The notes under the pieces are model-generated. The model did not search any database. It saw only the letters and a list, made by a program, of their open reading frames with translations, and had not been told where the DNA came from. Made by a program: the position numbers and the translations under genes. A stretch of DNA of 64,000 bases from Methanomassiliicoccus luminyensis B10 (lineage in GTDB: Archaea > Thermoplasmatota > Thermoplasmata > Methanomassiliicoccales > Methanomassiliicoccaceae), in the NCBI RefSeq assembly GCF_000308215.1, contig NZ_CAJE01000012.1, forward strand, positions 310,001 to 374,000. Reading direction: 5' to 3'. Positions 11,532 to 20,371 of this stretch are shown here, piece after piece; within the stretch, counting starts at the first letter, position 1, and every line of letters begins with the position of its first letter.

Positions 11532-13268
11532 TCACTCTTCCAGCGTGGAGAGGTCGCCCAGCGGCTGCCCCAGCTCCTTCGCTTTCAGGACCCGCCTCAT
11601 GATCTTGCCCGATCGGGTCTTCGGAAGCTTCTCGACGAACTCGATCTCCCGCGGATACGCGTAATACGCCAGGCGGGTCTTCACGAAGCGCGTTATCTCT
11701 TCCTTGAGCTTCTCTGACGGCGCATAGCCGGGCCTCAAGGAGACGAACGCCTTGACGATCTCGCCCCTCAGCTCGTCGGGCTTGCCGATGACGCCAGCCT
11801 CCGCTACTGCTGGATGCTCGATCAGAGCGGACTCCACCTCGAACGGTCCCAGCCTCTCCCCGGAGGTCTTGATGACGTCATCCGCCCGACCAAGGAACCA
11901 AAGGAAGCCGTCCTCGTCCTTGTAGGCCTGGTCCCCGGTGATGTACCAGCCCGGGATCCTGAAGTACTCCTTGTAGGTGGAGGCGTTCCTCCAGATGCCG
12001 ATCATCATGGACGGCCAGCCGGGGCGGAGCGCCAGGAACCCCTCTCCATACGGCGGGACCTCCGCCCCGTTCTCGTCCACCACGGCGGCAATGAGCCCAT
12101 GGATGGGCTTGCCCATGGAGCCGGGCTTGATGATGTTGCAGGGATAGTTGACGATGCAGGGGGCGCCCGTTTCGGTCTGCCACCAGTTGTCGTGGACCCT
12201 CTTCCCCATGGTCCTCATGGCCCAGCGGATGACCTCCGCGTTGAGCGGCTCTCCGGCGGAGCAGATGTGGCGAAGCTTGCTGAGGTCGAACTCCTTGACG
12301 ACATCGTCACCGGCCCTCATGAGCATCCTCAGGGCGGTGGGTGCGGTGTACCACACGCTGACCTTAAATTTCTCCAGGAGGTAGTACCATGCCCGGGCAT
12401 CGAAACGGCCCTCGTACGATATGATGGACGTCCCCAGGAACCAGGGGGCGAATATGCCGGCAGAGGTTCCGGTGACCCAGCCGGGGTCGGCGGTGCACCA
12501 GTAGGTATCTTCCTCTCTGAGATCGAGGACATACTTGGCTGCGGCCATCTGCTGCACCATGGCCCGGTGGCCGAGCATGATGCCCTTCGGTTTTCCGGTC
12601 GAGCCGGAAGTGTAGTGGATTATGTAGGGGTCGGTGGGCTTCATGGGGACCGCCTTGAACCCATGGTCCCCCATGGCCAACAGCTCGCGGAAGCTGATGA
12701 TGTCCTTCCCGAGCCCTCGCAGGCTGCTGATCTCCTCGTCGTTCCCTACCACCACGATCTTCTGCAGATCTACAAGTTCATGCAGCACCGGCTCGATGCG
12801 CTTCAGCAGGTAGGGTGAGGTGAAGATGATATTGCAGCCACTGTCCAGGGCGCGGTCCTTGATCGCTTCCGGGCCCAGGGCGGAGAACAGCGGTCCGGCG
12901 ATGCCGCCCATCTTAATGATGCCTAGGATGGAAGCGTACACCTCGAAGCCCCGGTCCAGGTACACGAAGATCCGGTCGCCCTTCTGCGCGCCCAGCTTGA
13001 CCAGGCCGTCGGCGATCTTGCTGGACACCCCTGACATCTCGTCGAAGGTGTACTTCTCCACCCGGGAGTCGGCCTTCACGGCGTACAGGGCGATCTTGTT
13101 CTTGCGCCAGCTGTGGGAGTGGCGGTCGACGGCCTCGGCGGCGATGTTGTAGACTCCGCCGTGGTACCACTCGAAGTCCTCGTGAATGGATGCCCAGTTG
13201 AACTCCTTCGACAGCTGCTCGTAGTCTTGCAGGTTCCCTGTGCCCCTGGGAGGCAATACATCATCCAA
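11532..13268 (-). CDS. AMP-forming acetyl/acyl-CoA synthetase
   Basis: 578 residues, ANL superfamily. Landmarks in order: ATP-binding P-loop YTSGSTGKPKG, VSVWYTAPTALRML, DNWWQTETG (acetyl-CoA-synthetase type A5 motif), GWYITGDQAYKDEDGFLWFLGRADDVIKTSGERLGPFEVE, and the C-terminal catalytic lysine in KTRSGKIMRR. The WWQTETG tryptophan usually limits the acyl pocket to short chains, so acetate or propionate is likely. The start is TTG at 13,268, read after AGGTGATG with 6-7 nt spacing. A TATA-like ACTTTATATCCC lies upstream. In this organism it would activate acetate for assimilation. Confidence 0.9.
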   Translation of the reverse strand: MDDVLPPRGTGNLQDYEQLSKEFNWASIHEDFEWYHGGVYNIAAEAVDRHSHSWRKNKIALYAVKADSRVEKYTFDEMSGVSSKIADGLVKLGAQKGDRIFVYLDRGFEVYASILGIIKMGGIAGPLFSALGPEAIKDRALDSGCNIIFTSPYLLKRIEPVLHELVDLQKIVVVGNDEEISSLRGLGKDIISFRELLAMGDHGFKAVPMKPTDPYIIHYTSGSTGKPKGIMLGHRAMVQQMAAAKYVLDLREEDTYWCTADPGWVTGTSAGIFAPWFLGTSIISYEGRFDARAWYYLLEKFKVSVWYTAPTALRMLMRAGDDVVKEFDLSKLRHICSAGEPLNAEVIRWAMRTMGKRVHDNWWQTETGAPCIVNYPCNIIKPGSMGKPIHGLIAAVVDENGAEVPPYGEGFLALRPGWPSMMIGIWRNASTYKEYFRIPGWYITGDQAYKDEDGFLWFLGRADDVIKTSGERLGPFEVESALIEHPAVAEAGVIGKPDELRGEIVKAFVSLRPGYAPSEKLKEEITRFVKTRLAYYAYPREIEFVEKLPKTRSGKIMRRVLKAKELGQPLGDLSTLEE

Positions 13269-16072: not shown

Positions 16073-16312
16073 TCATTCATCCTCGGGTGGAGGCGGTATG
16101 TCCTTTATCATTCCCCGCTCCTGCATGCGGCCGAGGAAGTCCTCTCGGTAGGCTACGTGGTCAAGGTAGTACCGTACGGAGGAGAGGATGAACTCGGATC
16201 GAGACATGTAACCCTTTTTGTTCACCCAAAGGTCTATTTCCGCGACCAATGCGGGAGGCATTCGTACGTTCACTATCTTGGAATCTTCTTGGTTTCCGGA
16301 TTTCCGGGGCAT
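16073..16312 (-). CDS. ribbon-helix-helix (CopG-type) repressor
   Basis: 79 residues. The core SKIVNVRMPPALVAEIDLWVNKKGYMSRSEFILSSVRYYLDHV is a ribbon-helix-helix DNA-binding domain: a beta strand (KIVNVRMP), then two helices with the typical G-YxSRSEFI turn. The ATG at 16,312 is preferred over 16,330 because the TATA-like TTTAATATAC (complement of about 16,337-16,346) lies 26-30 nt away. Its promoter and that of the divergent corrinoid operon share the half-site GTAATACA, so autoregulation and control of the methyltransferase genes are likely (inference). Confidence 0.85.
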   Translation of the reverse strand: MPRKSGNQEDSKIVNVRMPPALVAEIDLWVNKKGYMSRSEFILSSVRYYLDHVAYREDFLGRMQERGMIKDIPPPPEDE

Positions 16313-16321
16313 TCGATCGTT

Positions 16322-16344
16322 GTAATACACTTGTGTTGTATATT
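16322..16344. promoter_or_regulatory. RHH operator (imperfect) at repressor promoter
   Basis: GTAATACA (16,322-16,329) followed by an imperfect inverted copy TGTATATTA (16,336-16,344). The half-site is identical to that of the perfect palindrome at 16,393-16,414. It lies between the TATA box and the start of the repressor gene. Confidence 0.55.
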
Positions 16345-16392
16345 AAAGTCCTCCGTGCCCAAAAACTAAAGGAAAGAATAATATATCTACAA

Positions 16393-16414
16393 TTGTATTA
16401 CACAAGTAATACAA
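16393..16414. promoter_or_regulatory. perfect palindromic operator upstream of the corrinoid operon
   Basis: TTGTATTAC-ACAA-GTAATACAA: 9-bp arms, 4-nt spacer, no mismatch. It lies just downstream of a TATA-like AATAATATATC (about 16,377-16,387), so bound protein would cover the transcription start of the corrinoid operon. The probable ligand is the adjacent RHH protein. Confidence 0.7.
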
Positions 16415-16651
16415 GAAACCATCTCCATCCGAAATAGGGACGACCACAATGAGCCAAACGGAACGTATTGCGTGGCTTTTCGCGGCCTTGACCTCTAGAA
16501 CGGCGTTCAAGGTAGCTCCTAGCCCCCCATTGAACCGTATTGCCGGAAATCGTCGTTCTCTTTGATCTCTCCGGCAAGATTCACATCTAACTCGTCAGGC
16601 GGGAACGCCCATCCGATGAGATAGCGGTCCAGCCAGATAGGAGGAAAACAA
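16415..16651 (+). promoter_or_regulatory. long 5' leader of the corrinoid operon
   Basis: If transcription starts near 16,410 the leader is about 240 nt. Long leaders are known for methanol and methylamine methyltransferase operons in Methanosarcina. It contains a 38-codon open frame (16,449-16,565) starting at ATG and ending in TGA, with only a weak ribosome-binding site, which might be a leader peptide. No known riboswitch was recognised. Confidence 0.4.
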
Positions 16652-17305
16652 ATGGGAAACCAAGAGGAAATATTGGAAGGACTGAAGAACAGCGTGATAG
16701 ACTACGACCAAGATAAGGCCAAGGTCTACGCTATCCGAGCCGTAAATGACGGCATGGACGCACAGAAAGCCATCACCGACGGGCTGAGTGCGGGGATGAG
16801 TGAAGTGGGACAGCGGTACGAAAAACAAGATATGTACCTGCCGGAAGTAATGGCTGCATCACAAGCCATGTATGCGGCGCTAAATATCCTGATGCCTCAC
16901 CTGAGTGCCAAGGATGACACTAAGGTAATGAAGAAGGTAGTCATTGGCACCGTGGAGGGTGATGTGCATTCGATCGGTAAAACGATCGTAGGTACACTCC
17001 TTAAGGTGCATGGCTATGATGTCCAGGACCTCGGAGCGGATGTCCCCATAAATACGTTCATCGAGACCGCGGAGAAGAGCCAAGCAGATGTGATCGCCAT
17101 GAGCACGCTCATGACCACTACGATGGCGGGCATGGAAGATGCCATGAAGTCCCTCAAGGCCAAGGGGATCCGGGACAAATTCAAGGTGGCCGTCGGCGGA
17201 GCTCCGGTGAACGAGGAATTCTGCCGGCTCATTGGCGCGGACTTCACCGCCACCAACGCGGAGAAGGCGGTCGAAGAGGCCAACAGAGTGTTCGGAGGCG
17301 AGTAG
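16652..17305 (+). CDS. methyltransferase cognate corrinoid protein (MtaC/MtbC/MttC family)
   Basis: 217 residues, the normal length. The N-terminal helical cap (about 1-90) is followed by a cobalamin-binding Rossmann domain with D104-V-H106-S-I-G109, where H106 is the lower cobalt ligand, and the later STLMTTTM and VAVGGAPV motifs. It shuttles a methyl group on cob(I)alamin between a substrate-specific methyltransferase and a UroD-type enzyme that methylates coenzyme M. AGGAGG about 6 nt before the ATG. The partner methyltransferase gene starts 1 nt after its stop. Which substrate it serves is unknown, as no MtaB, MtmB, MtbB or MttB gene is adjacent. Confidence 0.93.
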   Translation: MGNQEEILEGLKNSVIDYDQDKAKVYAIRAVNDGMDAQKAITDGLSAGMSEVGQRYEKQDMYLPEVMAASQAMYAALNILMPHLSAKDDTKVMKKVVIGTVEGDVHSIGKTIVGTLLKVHGYDVQDLGADVPINTFIETAEKSQADVIAMSTLMTTTMAGMEDAMKSLKAKGIRDKFKVAVGGAPVNEEFCRLIGADFTATNAEKAVEEANRVFGGE

Positions 17306-17306
17306 G

Positions 17307-18398
17307 ATGTGGACCGAGACCATGACCCCGTTCGAGCGTCTGATGTCCCTTCACCAGACGGGATGGGCGGACCGGCCGGGGGTAGGTGCATTTGCTATGG
17401 GCATGATACCCAAGCTTACCCCGGGACTAACTATTGGGGAGTGTTACGAGGACCCTGTCAAATTCGCCAAGGCCTACCTGCCGATACAGCAGCTGTTCGG
17501 TTTTGACACTGGTCCTCTCTTCGGGCACGCCTGCTCCGGAGCGGCCGAGTTCGGCGGGACGATATCATATCCGGCCCCAGACTCACGATCGCAGTCTCCC
17601 ATGATAAGGAGCCACCCCCTTAACACGCCAGAGAAGGTCGATGCCATGGAGGTTCCCGATCCGGCCACCGCGGGGGAGGTCGAGAAGACCTGTCAGGGCG
17701 CGAGGTATGTGCTCAAGAACTTCCCTGATGGATATAAAAGTCCCTCCATCGTCACCGGCACGCCTTTCACATGGGCCGGCAACGCCGTCGGAGTGGAAAC
17801 TATGCTCCTGTGGATGATCAAGCAGCCGGATCTCGTGCACAAGGTGCTCAAGGGGGTGACGGAGTTTCTCATCGAGCAGGCCAAGTACATCGTGAAGACG
17901 GTTGGCCCGATCATGCTGTTCGATGGCGGGCCTAGCGATGCAAACGATCTCATCAGCCCCAAGCAGTTCGAGACCTTCGCCTTGCCCTACCTCATAAAGG
18001 TCAGGGAGGGAGCGCTGAAGGCAGGCATCCCCGGCTTCCTGGCGCACCCCTGCGGGAACCAGGTCAAGAACGTGGAGATGTGGGCCCGGGTGCCGGGATC
18101 GTTCGGCATCAACTTCGACTACCGCACTCCGCTGGAAACTTGCGTGAAGGTGTTTGGCCCCACCACCATGGTGATCGGGAACATCGAGCCGGCCAAGTTC
18201 CAGTACAGCAACTACGGCTGGATCTACCAGAAGACCATGGAGAGCCTGCGCACCGCGTACAACGCCCCTCATGGATATATGGTCGGTCCTGGCTGCGAGA
18301 TACCCACGGACACGCCTCCGCTGCACCTTGCCGCGATGATCCAGGCAACCAGGAAGTTCGCTCAGAGCAAGGAGTGGCAGGAGATCCGTCCCAAGTAA
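17307..18398 (+). CDS. UroD-family corrinoid methyltransferase (MtaA/MtbA/CmuA-like), copy 1
   Basis: 363 residues, uroporphyrinogen-decarboxylase fold. The zinc site of methyl-corrinoid:CoM methyltransferases is complete: H247-x-C249 in LAHPCGN and C330 in GPGCEIP. TIGECYEDPVKFAKAY and FDGGPSDANDLISPKQFE are also family-like. The ATG at 17,307 follows GGAGG at 17,294-17,298 (8 nt). It is coupled to the corrinoid gene (1 nt gap). It could be the CoM methylase or, as in CmuA and some newer groups, the substrate demethylase; the presence of a second copy suggests division of labour. Confidence 0.88.
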   Translation: MWTETMTPFERLMSLHQTGWADRPGVGAFAMGMIPKLTPGLTIGECYEDPVKFAKAYLPIQQLFGFDTGPLFGHACSGAAEFGGTISYPAPDSRSQSPMIRSHPLNTPEKVDAMEVPDPATAGEVEKTCQGARYVLKNFPDGYKSPSIVTGTPFTWAGNAVGVETMLLWMIKQPDLVHKVLKGVTEFLIEQAKYIVKTVGPIMLFDGGPSDANDLISPKQFETFALPYLIKVREGALKAGIPGFLAHPCGNQVKNVEMWARVPGSFGINFDYRTPLETCVKVFGPTTMVIGNIEPAKFQYSNYGWIYQKTMESLRTAYNAPHGYMVGPGCEIPTDTPPLHLAAMIQATRKFAQSKEWQEIRPK

Positions 18399-18440
18399 GG
18401 GCCGCTAGCGGACTTTAGAGGACATGACAGAGGTGTTACT

Positions 18441-19058
18441 ATAGCTGAAGCTAACAAAGAAAATCTGGTAAGGATAGTGGACTCGTCAGCGAGCCCGGAC
18501 GCGCTCGGCTCGATGCTGCTGGGTTGGGTGACCATCCTTCTGGCCTTGTCGGCCTTGAACGTATACCCGGTAGGGGGAATGGTCCTGGCGACCATATTCT
18601 TCTCCGGTTTCGGGTTCATGTTGGTGGCCTATATCGGGTACAAGCGGGGCGAACCCTTCACCTTGTTCGCTTTCGGAGCAATAGCGGTGTTCGTATGGTC
18701 CTTCTCAGGGTTCCATATCTTGCCAGCAATGGGCCTGACAGCGGCCACCACAGCAAACGAGGTGGCCGCATTCATGATAGTCTTCGCGTTATTCATTGCC
18801 GTCCTGGCCGTGATCACCATGAAGATGCCATGCCGCCTGCTGACGATCACGATCTTCTCGGCGGCGATATTGTTCCTCATGGTCGGCATCCAGGCGGCAA
18901 CGGGTGATGCGAACCTGTTGACCATGTTTGGGCTTTGGGGCATGTTCGTCGGCATTCTGGCCCTGTACCTTGGAAGCGCGATCACGTTGAACACGGTCTA
19001 CGGGAGAATGGTCGTCCCCCTGATGATGAAATGCGAGGTGATCAGAAAGGAAGCCTGA
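18441..19058 (+). CDS. GPR1/FUN34/YaaH family small-carboxylate transporter
   Basis: About 205 residues with six hydrophobic segments. Family landmarks: SPDALGSMLLGWVTILLALSALNVYPVGGMVL (equivalent of NPAPLGL), IAVFVWSFSGFHILP, and MFGLWGMFVGILALYLGSAITLN near the end. SatP/YaaH proteins carry acetate and succinate. No ATG or TTG exists in frame after the preceding stop. AGAGGTG (18,429-18,435) sits 5 nt before ATA at 18,441, giving MAEANKENLVRIVDSS..., while a GTG at 18,477 has only a poor site. It is the last gene before a terminator in the corrinoid operon. Confidence 0.85.
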   Translation: MAEANKENLVRIVDSSASPDALGSMLLGWVTILLALSALNVYPVGGMVLATIFFSGFGFMLVAYIGYKRGEPFTLFAFGAIAVFVWSFSGFHILPAMGLTAATTANEVAAFMIVFALFIAVLAVITMKMPCRLLTITIFSAAILFLMVGIQAATGDANLLTMFGLWGMFVGILALYLGSAITLNTVYGRMVVPLMMKCEVIRKEA

Positions 19059-19069
19059 AACGTAACGAA

Positions 19070-19111
19070 GACAGGGGCCTTTCACTGACATTTGGGCCCC
19101 TGTCATTTTTT
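19070..19111 (+). terminator. intrinsic-type terminator after the YaaH gene
   Basis: Perfect 10-bp stem GACAGGGGCC / GGCCCCTGTC (19,070-19,079 and 19,095-19,104) with a 15-nt loop, followed by A and six T. It ends the corrinoid operon before the second methyltransferase gene. Confidence 0.75.
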
Positions 19112-19181
19112 CCTAAGAGCATGGTTCACGAGTACACATCGGCGTTGGAAATAGGCTCCTTGTGTGCAACATCTGTGAAAT

Positions 19182-19270
19182 ACAGTAATATATGGCACAG
19201 GGAGCTAGATGACCGTAGGCGCATTGGTGGGGTTGACGCGATAGATGCAAGGTGAGCCTCGGAGGTGATC
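19182..19270 (+). promoter_or_regulatory. promoter and leader of the second UroD methyltransferase
   Basis: A TATA-like GTAATATATGG lies at about 19,182-19,192. At 19,261-19,270 GGAGGTGATC matches the full anti-Shine-Dalgarno complement, 8 nt (from GGAGG) before a GTG at 19,274. So copy 2 has its own promoter and a very strong ribosome-binding site. Confidence 0.55.
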
Positions 19271-19273
19271 AGA

Positions 19274-20371
19274 GTGTTCCGAGAGAAAATGACACCGAAA
19301 GAGCGGATCAACTCGCTCCATGAGACCGGCCGGGCCGACCGGCCGGGGATATCTGTCCTGGCGATGGGACTGGTCCCCAGGATGACTGGGGTCTTGACCA
19401 TCGGGGAGTGCTACGAGGATCCCATCAAGTACGCCCGCGCGTTCCTGAGGGTCCAGGAACTTTTCGGGTTCGACAGCGGGCCTGTGTTCGGACACCCCGC
19501 CTGTGGAGCTGCGGAGTTCGGGGGCAAGCTCCTGTATCCTCGGGCCAATTCCAAGATGCAGTCGCCTGTGATTGCCAAGCATCCTTTGACCAAGCTCGAG
19601 GACATCGATCGTTTGGAGGTCCCCGACCCTGCCAAGGCAGGAGAGATACCCAGATTGGTGGCCGGCGCGAAATATGTTCTGGACAACTATCCCGATGGAT
19701 ATCGGAACCCCATGCTGGTCTCCGGCGACCCCTTCACCTGGGCAGGGAACATCATTGGCATGGACACCATGCTTATGTGGATCGAGCAAGACCCCGCGCT
19801 GGTGGCCAAGGCGCTTGACATCGTAGCAGAGTTCGAGATCGAAGTGGTAAAATACGCACTGCGAGAGCTCGGGGAGGTTACTTTCTTTGACGGAGCCGTA
19901 TGCTGTTCGAACGACCTTATTAACGCAAAGCGGTTCAAACAGTTGGCCCTTCCCCCGCTGGTGAAATACAGAGTGGAGAGCATAAAGGCAGGAGCTGAAC
20001 GGTTCGTATCTCATCCCTGCGGGGACCAGAGCAAGAACATTGACTTCTGGGGCCAGGTACCGGGGACGTATACCATCAACTTCGATTTCCGTACACCACT
20101 GGAACTATGCGTCAGCAAGCTCGATAAGGAAATGACTATAGCCGGAAACATTGAGTGCATGCACTTCCTAATCGGCGACTACGACTGGATCTACAGGAAG
20201 TCTTACGACAAGCTCAAGTTCGCCGCCACTAGATGCCGGAGAGGATATCTCGTCGGTCCGGGGTGCGAGATACCTCCGAACAGCTCTCCCGTCAACATCC
20301 ACGCGTTGGTGTCCGCCGCGAGAGACTACGCCGCCAACGATCCCGATTGGAAAGCGATGGGAGCACGCTGA
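19274..20371 (+). CDS. UroD-family corrinoid methyltransferase (MtaA/MtbA/CmuA-like), copy 2
   Basis: 365 residues, clearly paralogous to the protein at 17,307 (TPKERINSLHETGRADRPG, TIGECYEDPIKYARAF, DPFTWAGNIIGMDTMLMWIEQDP). The zinc ligands are kept: H247-x-C249 in SHPCGDQ and C331 in GPGCEIP. Start at GTG 19,274, spaced 8 nt from GGAGG; an in-frame GTG at 19,265 overlaps that site. Its own promoter follows a terminator, so it may be expressed apart from copy 1. One copy may act on the substrate and the other on coenzyme M. Confidence 0.87.
   Translation: MFREKMTPKERINSLHETGRADRPGISVLAMGLVPRMTGVLTIGECYEDPIKYARAFLRVQELFGFDSGPVFGHPACGAAEFGGKLLYPRANSKMQSPVIAKHPLTKLEDIDRLEVPDPAKAGEIPRLVAGAKYVLDNYPDGYRNPMLVSGDPFTWAGNIIGMDTMLMWIEQDPALVAKALDIVAEFEIEVVKYALRELGEVTFFDGAVCCSNDLINAKRFKQLALPPLVKYRVESIKAGAERFVSHPCGDQSKNIDFWGQVPGTYTINFDFRTPLELCVSKLDKEMTIAGNIECMHFLIGDYDWIYRKSYDKLKFAATRCRRGYLVGPGCEIPPNSSPVNIHALVSAARDYAANDPDWKAMGAR

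Follow-up and report, generated by a model that had tools for sequence, protein, structure and literature searches.

A 64,000-nucleotide stretch of contig NZ_CAJE01000012.1 of Methanomassiliicoccus luminyensis B10 (positions 310,001 to 374,000, hereafter the window; G000:C12:310001-374000 in our genome set, G000 comprising 2,620,233 bases in 26 contigs) contains a conserved five-gene module that couples corrinoid-dependent methyl transfer genes to a small-acid permease. A ribbon-helix-helix (RHH) regulator is transcribed divergently from genes for a corrinoid protein (CP), a UroD-superfamily methyltransferase (UroD1), a YaaH-type permease and a second methyltransferase (UroD2). That the module is a regulated cassette by which a substrate enters hydrogen-dependent methylotrophic methanogenesis is, in our estimate, somewhat better than an even prospect. 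Its genes are as follows.

16073..16330, minus strand: RHH regulator, divergent from the cassette, with orthologues in the same place in genomes G018 (121.9 bits) and G019 (130.6 bits).
16652..17305, plus strand: corrinoid protein of MttC/MtbC-like size with DVHSIG and both B12 domains (PF02310, 9.5e-27; PF02607, 7.9e-19).
17307..18398, plus strand: UroD1, UroD-superfamily methyltransferase with zinc ligands H-C-C (PF01208, 4.6e-43); the best start is the ATG at 17307.
18477..19058, plus strand: divergent YaaH/SatP-type (AceTr) permease, start uncertain (NF038013, 81.6 bits against a cut-off of 50).
19265..20371, plus strand: UroD2, a paralogue of UroD1 (50% identical) with zinc ligands H-C-C (PF01208, 1.3e-33).

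All five reading frames are intact, and each component named in a preliminary description of this DNA (an RHH repressor, a corrinoid protein with DVHSIG, two UroDs with zinc sites and a YaaH transporter) was confirmed. The RHH / CP–UroD1–YaaH–UroD2 arrangement is a real module. UroD1 relatives at E ≤ 1e-40 were found in three of the 147 Methanomassiliicoccales genomes scanned (G000, G018 and G019), in each as two copies approximately 2 kb apart, and at that threshold the pair is present in none of the others. Both G018 and G019 hold the full set in the same order and on the same strands as the window, again with the RHH gene divergent. Module members are 50–70% identical across the three genomes (UroD1 of the window shares 70 and 66% identity with the G018 and G019 copies, YaaH 67 and 67%), and the persistence of all five genes together despite such sequence drift cannot be put down to chance. 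The patchy distribution within the family makes loss or transfer likely. Phylum-wide and relatives scans yielded no further close members of the UroD pair, a contig scan with patterns from the N-terminal region of the pair recovered only distant relatives (21-26% identity), and a plasmid scan only distant UroDs. We found no paper on this locus or on a YaaH-linked corrinoid system in a literature search that excluded the supplementary tables of Methanomassiliicoccales genome papers and the Fu and Metcalf papers, so a prior listing is possible.

The relationships of the two methyltransferases were determined in a tree of 42 UroD sequences. The three UroD1 and three UroD2 proteins form one clade (branch support 100/100) that divides into a UroD1 branch (100/99) and a UroD2 branch (99/96); because each is an orthologous trio, the duplication predates the species split and both copies have been retained. 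Grouped with them (10 rows, 100/99) are two further, unassigned UroDs of the window genome, a G010 protein and a protein from another family of Thermoplasmatota. A separate clade, labelled SCMT here, contains M. mazei MtaA together with MtaA/MtbA-type and MtsA-like proteins (12 rows, 100/99), and forcing the six module UroDs into it costs 26 log units (approximately unbiased test, p=0.034). Support for placing UroD1 and UroD2 outside this clade is good but not overwhelming; the preliminary description had proposed a phylogeny as a check, and neither copy fell among MtaA, MtbA or MtsA.

These data bear on the possibility that both UroDs are spare coenzyme M (CoM) methylases (MtaA/MtbA isozymes), with the corrinoid protein served by a remote substrate methyltransferase. 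The UroD fold is indeed nearest to MtaA: an AlphaFold model of UroD1 built from 25 alignment rows (pLDDT 94.8; a six-row version was weaker, pLDDT 67.8) has MtaA (4ay7) as its top PDB match, at TM 0.81-0.86. The zinc site is likewise shared with MtaA and MtbA, and similarity to the MtaA/MtbA models is weak but real. However, UroD1 and UroD2 reach only 85.6 and 84.1 bits against the NCBIfam MtaA/CmuA model, far below the cut-off of 235.4 that four other UroDs of the genome pass, and they lie outside the SCMT clade. Moreover, every MtaB, MtmB and MttB match in the genome adjoins or lies near corrinoid genes of its own. We regard a role as spare methylases as quite improbable. Two candidate markers of function were rejected: the invariant Arg of the UroD1/2 motif FD(Y/F)RTPLE is not diagnostic of carboxylate binding, since the aligned residue in MtaA/MtbA-type proteins is Lys, and profile scores failed to single out the UroD of the CoM step, UroD1 scoring slightly higher on SCMT profiles but with overlapping ranges.

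The His-Cys-Cys zinc motif (H-x-C...C) is kept in all six module UroDs. According to Kountz and Balskus, this triad marks the S-methyltransferases of the superfamily and suits sulfur or selenium, while the O-methyltransferases have lost one or both cysteines (PMC10418091). Retention of the triad favours an S- (or Se-) methyl over an O-methyl substrate. O-demethylation of methoxyacetate or similar methoxy-acids would suit a small-acid permease, and the superfamily does include aryl O-demethylases (PMC10418091), but those enzymes replace zinc cysteines that the module proteins keep, and we consider it extremely improbable.

The corrinoid protein scores 212.8 bits against TIGR02370 (cut-off 215.3) and has orthologues in loci L055 and L056; its gene is the only corrinoid gene found within the window. 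Across the genome, UroD and corrinoid-protein genes number 15 each. It also encodes three MtaB, four MtmB and one MttB, all on contigs other than that of the window; each MtmB, like the MttB, carries one in-frame TAG, and the MttB and two MtmB lie on contig 23. No MtrH was found in the genome. The preliminary description was right that the window has no classic substrate methyltransferase, as far as the families tested are concerned (MtbB was not searched separately), but its term 'orphan' fits the island locally and not the organism, which has MtaB, MtmB and MttB elsewhere. A published description of M. luminyensis (PMC5688252) lists mtaBC three times, mtmC four times and mttBC and mtbBC once each, and places a large methylamine cluster on contig 23. 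Judged by position and by these counts, about nine of the 15 corrinoid genes belong to classic methanol and methylamine systems, and the window gene is not one of them. Six RamA/RACo-type activase matches occur in the genome, none of them within the window.

Other UroD loci vary in partner genes and zinc ligands. At C15:64-70 kb of the window genome (L032:4046-9711), a UroD adjoins a corrinoid protein and a hydantoinase/oxoprolinase-like protein without a classic substrate methyltransferase, and groups with Lokiarchaeal UroDs that likewise adjoin a corrinoid gene. At C12:117-123 kb (L038:9619-13568), an H-D-C paralogue adjoins MtaA-type, corrinoid protein and activase genes; its ligands would suit O-demethylation by the published ligand rule. 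Three further paralogues (L039:8858-9919, L035:8640-9701 and L036:9336-10373) form one clade with H-H-C instead of H-C-C, and two of these adjoin what appear to be genes for an ABC transporter and its substrate-binding protein, which points to a different class of substrate.

The permease shares family membership, by NCBIfam and Pfam, with the SatP/Ato (AceTr) acetate-succinate transporters but differs from them in both signature and constriction. Its score against the Pfam model is barely above the cut-off (25.7 versus 25), and it matches SatP (5zug) at 2.5e-15, with the stretches around F17 and L131 aligning ungapped. The SatP constriction F17-Y72-L131 becomes L-I-A in the window protein and is alike in window-type members (with V for I in G145), and the NPAPLGL signature becomes SPDALGS, with similar changes in its subfamily. 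The majority of ordinary YaaHs in the order retain F, Y (or F) and L at the constriction. In yeast Ato1 (ScAto1), L219A, equivalent to L131A, admits succinate, and L131V improves lactate (PMC8779868). Since all three constriction residues are changed, the pore is expected from the alignment to be wider than acetate requires, and the permease probably carries something larger than acetate. The preliminary description had suggested that a methylated small acid is taken up through YaaH; this suggestion is partly supported. The altered pore fits a bulkier acid, and the zinc ligands favour methylthio-carboxylates; methoxy-acids are not supported, given that His-Cys-Cys is an S/Se-methyltransferase site (PMC10418091).

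A permease–METHYLTRANSFERASE link extends beyond the cassette. In G145, a genome of a different family, a UroD and a distant RHH relative adjoin a YaaH related to that of the window, and another UroD is found on the opposite side; the first-named UroD (L104_Ua) is the tree sister of a UroD directly downstream of the module in G019. G010 has an RHH gene of this kind beside two UroDs, without YaaH. Among 30 ordinary YaaH loci of the order, none has a UroD within 1.5 kb. Because YaaH is linked in every genome with the UroD pair, and a relative is linked to UroD in a second family, transporter and UroD appear to belong together; the preliminary description would have taken an unlinked transporter in all relatives as a refutation, which is not what we found.

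Three further observations concern permeases and their neighbours. G018 has a second window-type YaaH (L100:7492-14064), which has no UroD nearby and adjoins an acetyl-CoA synthase gene with its neighbours. The window genome has a separate YaaH-UroD pair with an HTH_10 regulator at C12:686-689 kb (L043:7280-10107); this YaaH keeps F17 and Y72 and has G for L131, and its UroD is H-C-C and sister to one in G071. An AMP-forming acetate-CoA ligase in the window (11532-13268; NF003313 over cut-off), 3 kb off on the other strand, was rejected as a partner, none being seen beside the module in G018 or G019.

Two intergenic elements may bear on expression of the cassette.

16393..16414, no strand assigned: operator-like perfect palindrome TTGTATTAC-ACAA-GTAATACAA, with 9-base arms and a 4-base centre, between the RHH and corrinoid genes.
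19070..19104, plus strand: hairpin with a trailing T run, resembling a terminator, in the YaaH–UroD2 interval (-23.1 kcal/mol, z -5.06).

The palindrome is the sole match to its pattern in the 64 kb even at 3 mismatches, with 0 expected in 100 shuffles, the pattern being derived from this very site. Related boxes, GTATTA...TAATAC and ACAAGTGTA(A/T)TACAC, occur between the corresponding genes of G018 and G019, and we propose the palindrome as a candidate RHH operator. Alone, the RHH protein is without a Pfam match and gives a weak NikR-type RHH match; its distant relatives in other genomes, found in G145 and G010 at the YaaH/UroD and two-UroD loci described above, exceed the Pfam RHH_1 cut-off.

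From gene order, clade, zinc ligands and pore changes we infer the catalytic steps, the direction of transport, the substrate and the regulation as follows. The permease would import a methylated small carboxylate, or a zwitterion, that exceeds acetate in size and is most probably an S-methyl compound, for example 3-methylthiopropionate. At least one of the two UroDs would hold the substrate sulfur on its His-Cys-Cys zinc and methylate Co(I) of the dedicated corrinoid protein. From there the methyl group would reach coenzyme M through the other cassette UroD, as proposed for SdmB/SdmC, or through an MtaA/MtbA-type enzyme encoded elsewhere, and would be reduced to methane. One of the six activases encoded elsewhere would reactivate the corrinoid protein, and the RHH protein, acting at the palindrome between the divergently transcribed genes, would regulate the cassette. 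In G019, two extra SCMT-clade (MtaA-type) UroDs lie directly downstream of UroD2, which favours a separate CoM methylase, at least in that genome. The earlier proposal that one UroD demethylates a substrate stands as the best reading insofar as a UroD acts on the substrate, but this role need not be restricted to a single copy, since the two may act in series or a separate MtaA-type enzyme may serve CoM. An S-methyl small acid is the most economical substrate proposal; that it is 3-methylthiopropionate in particular we hold to be unlikely, and name that compound tentatively.

Four points weigh against this reading. Window-type YaaHs that lack a UroD nearby exist in G018 and G020, one of them beside acetyl-CoA synthase genes, so membership of this permease subfamily does not entail a role in methyl transfer. 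The hairpin parts UroD2 from the rest of the cassette in the window, and such a strong stem with a T run after YaaH suggests that UroD2 may be a separate transcript with its own promoter; at this position G018 and G019 have shorter stems without a T run, no better than shuffles. The separation of UroD1/2 from the SCMTs depends on deep, long branches. Lastly, M. luminyensis grows on methanol and methylamines with H2 (PMC5688252), and we found no report of its growth on methylthio-acids.

By likeness of build, the cassette may work as MtpCAP or SdmABC do. The mtpCAP-msrH locus of M. acetivorans is required for growth on methylmercaptopropionate, and comprises the same ensemble of corrinoid protein, CoM-methyltransferase-like protein, transporter and regulator (PMC7374477). 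The cassette could be the Methanomassiliicoccales equivalent of this system, known in Methanosarcina, or of MtsAB, with another permease; the zinc ligands fit an S-methyl substrate, and we judge this a possible though unlikely alternative. MtpP is an MFS permease whereas that of the cassette is AceTr, and MtpCAP-MsrH has one methyltransferase and another regulator in place of two UroDs and RHH. MtsAB (methylthiol:CoM methyltransferase) resembles the cassette in combining a UroD and a corrinoid protein and in the S-methyl chemistry proposed here, but the genome already has two MtsA-like UroD and corrinoid protein pairs elsewhere, with their UroDs in the SCMT clade and a larger corrinoid partner.

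Removal of the methyl group could instead serve to free sulfur or selenium and not to make methane, as in the dimethylselenide system SdmABC of Methanococcus or type 1 mlp gene clusters. The cassette shares with both the build of a corrinoid protein with at least two H-C-C UroDs (PMC10418091, PMC11097638); the SdmABC proteins are proposed to be, in that order, a corrinoid protein, a methyltransferase for the substrate and one for CoM (PMC11097638). The profile scores of UroD1/2 to mlp-type sequences about equal those to SCMTs. Yet the conserved module has no activase and no selenium or sulfur-assimilation gene, and has a permease and RHH instead; dimethylselenide, moreover, is volatile and assumed to need no active transport (PMC11097638). 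In the tree, mlp-like rows from Acetoanaerobium and Lachnospiraceae (not reference Mlp sequences) fall in different, well supported clades from UroD1/2. Scavenging is decidedly unlikely in our view. A very improbable variant of the methanogenic reading is that UroD1 and UroD2 are serial demethylases of one imported two-methyl molecule, for example of dimethylsulfoniopropionate and then methylthiopropionate, with a corrinoid protein in common; recognition of the cation would then fall to the acidic residue that takes the place of the alanine in the permease signature. If true, methane would thereby be formed from a zwitterionic sulfonium compound by a route not previously described.

Methanomassiliicoccales are considered to live on methanol, methylamines and perhaps methyl sulfides, and growth has not been linked to the MtsAB homologues that they carry (PMC10673518, PMC10805028). 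Surveys in which methylotrophy is accepted only on the evidence of known MtxB genes can overlook systems built on UroDs alone. The cassette would add a food source to methylotrophic methanogenesis, one that can be tested by growth and assay in the cultured gut methanogen M. luminyensis.

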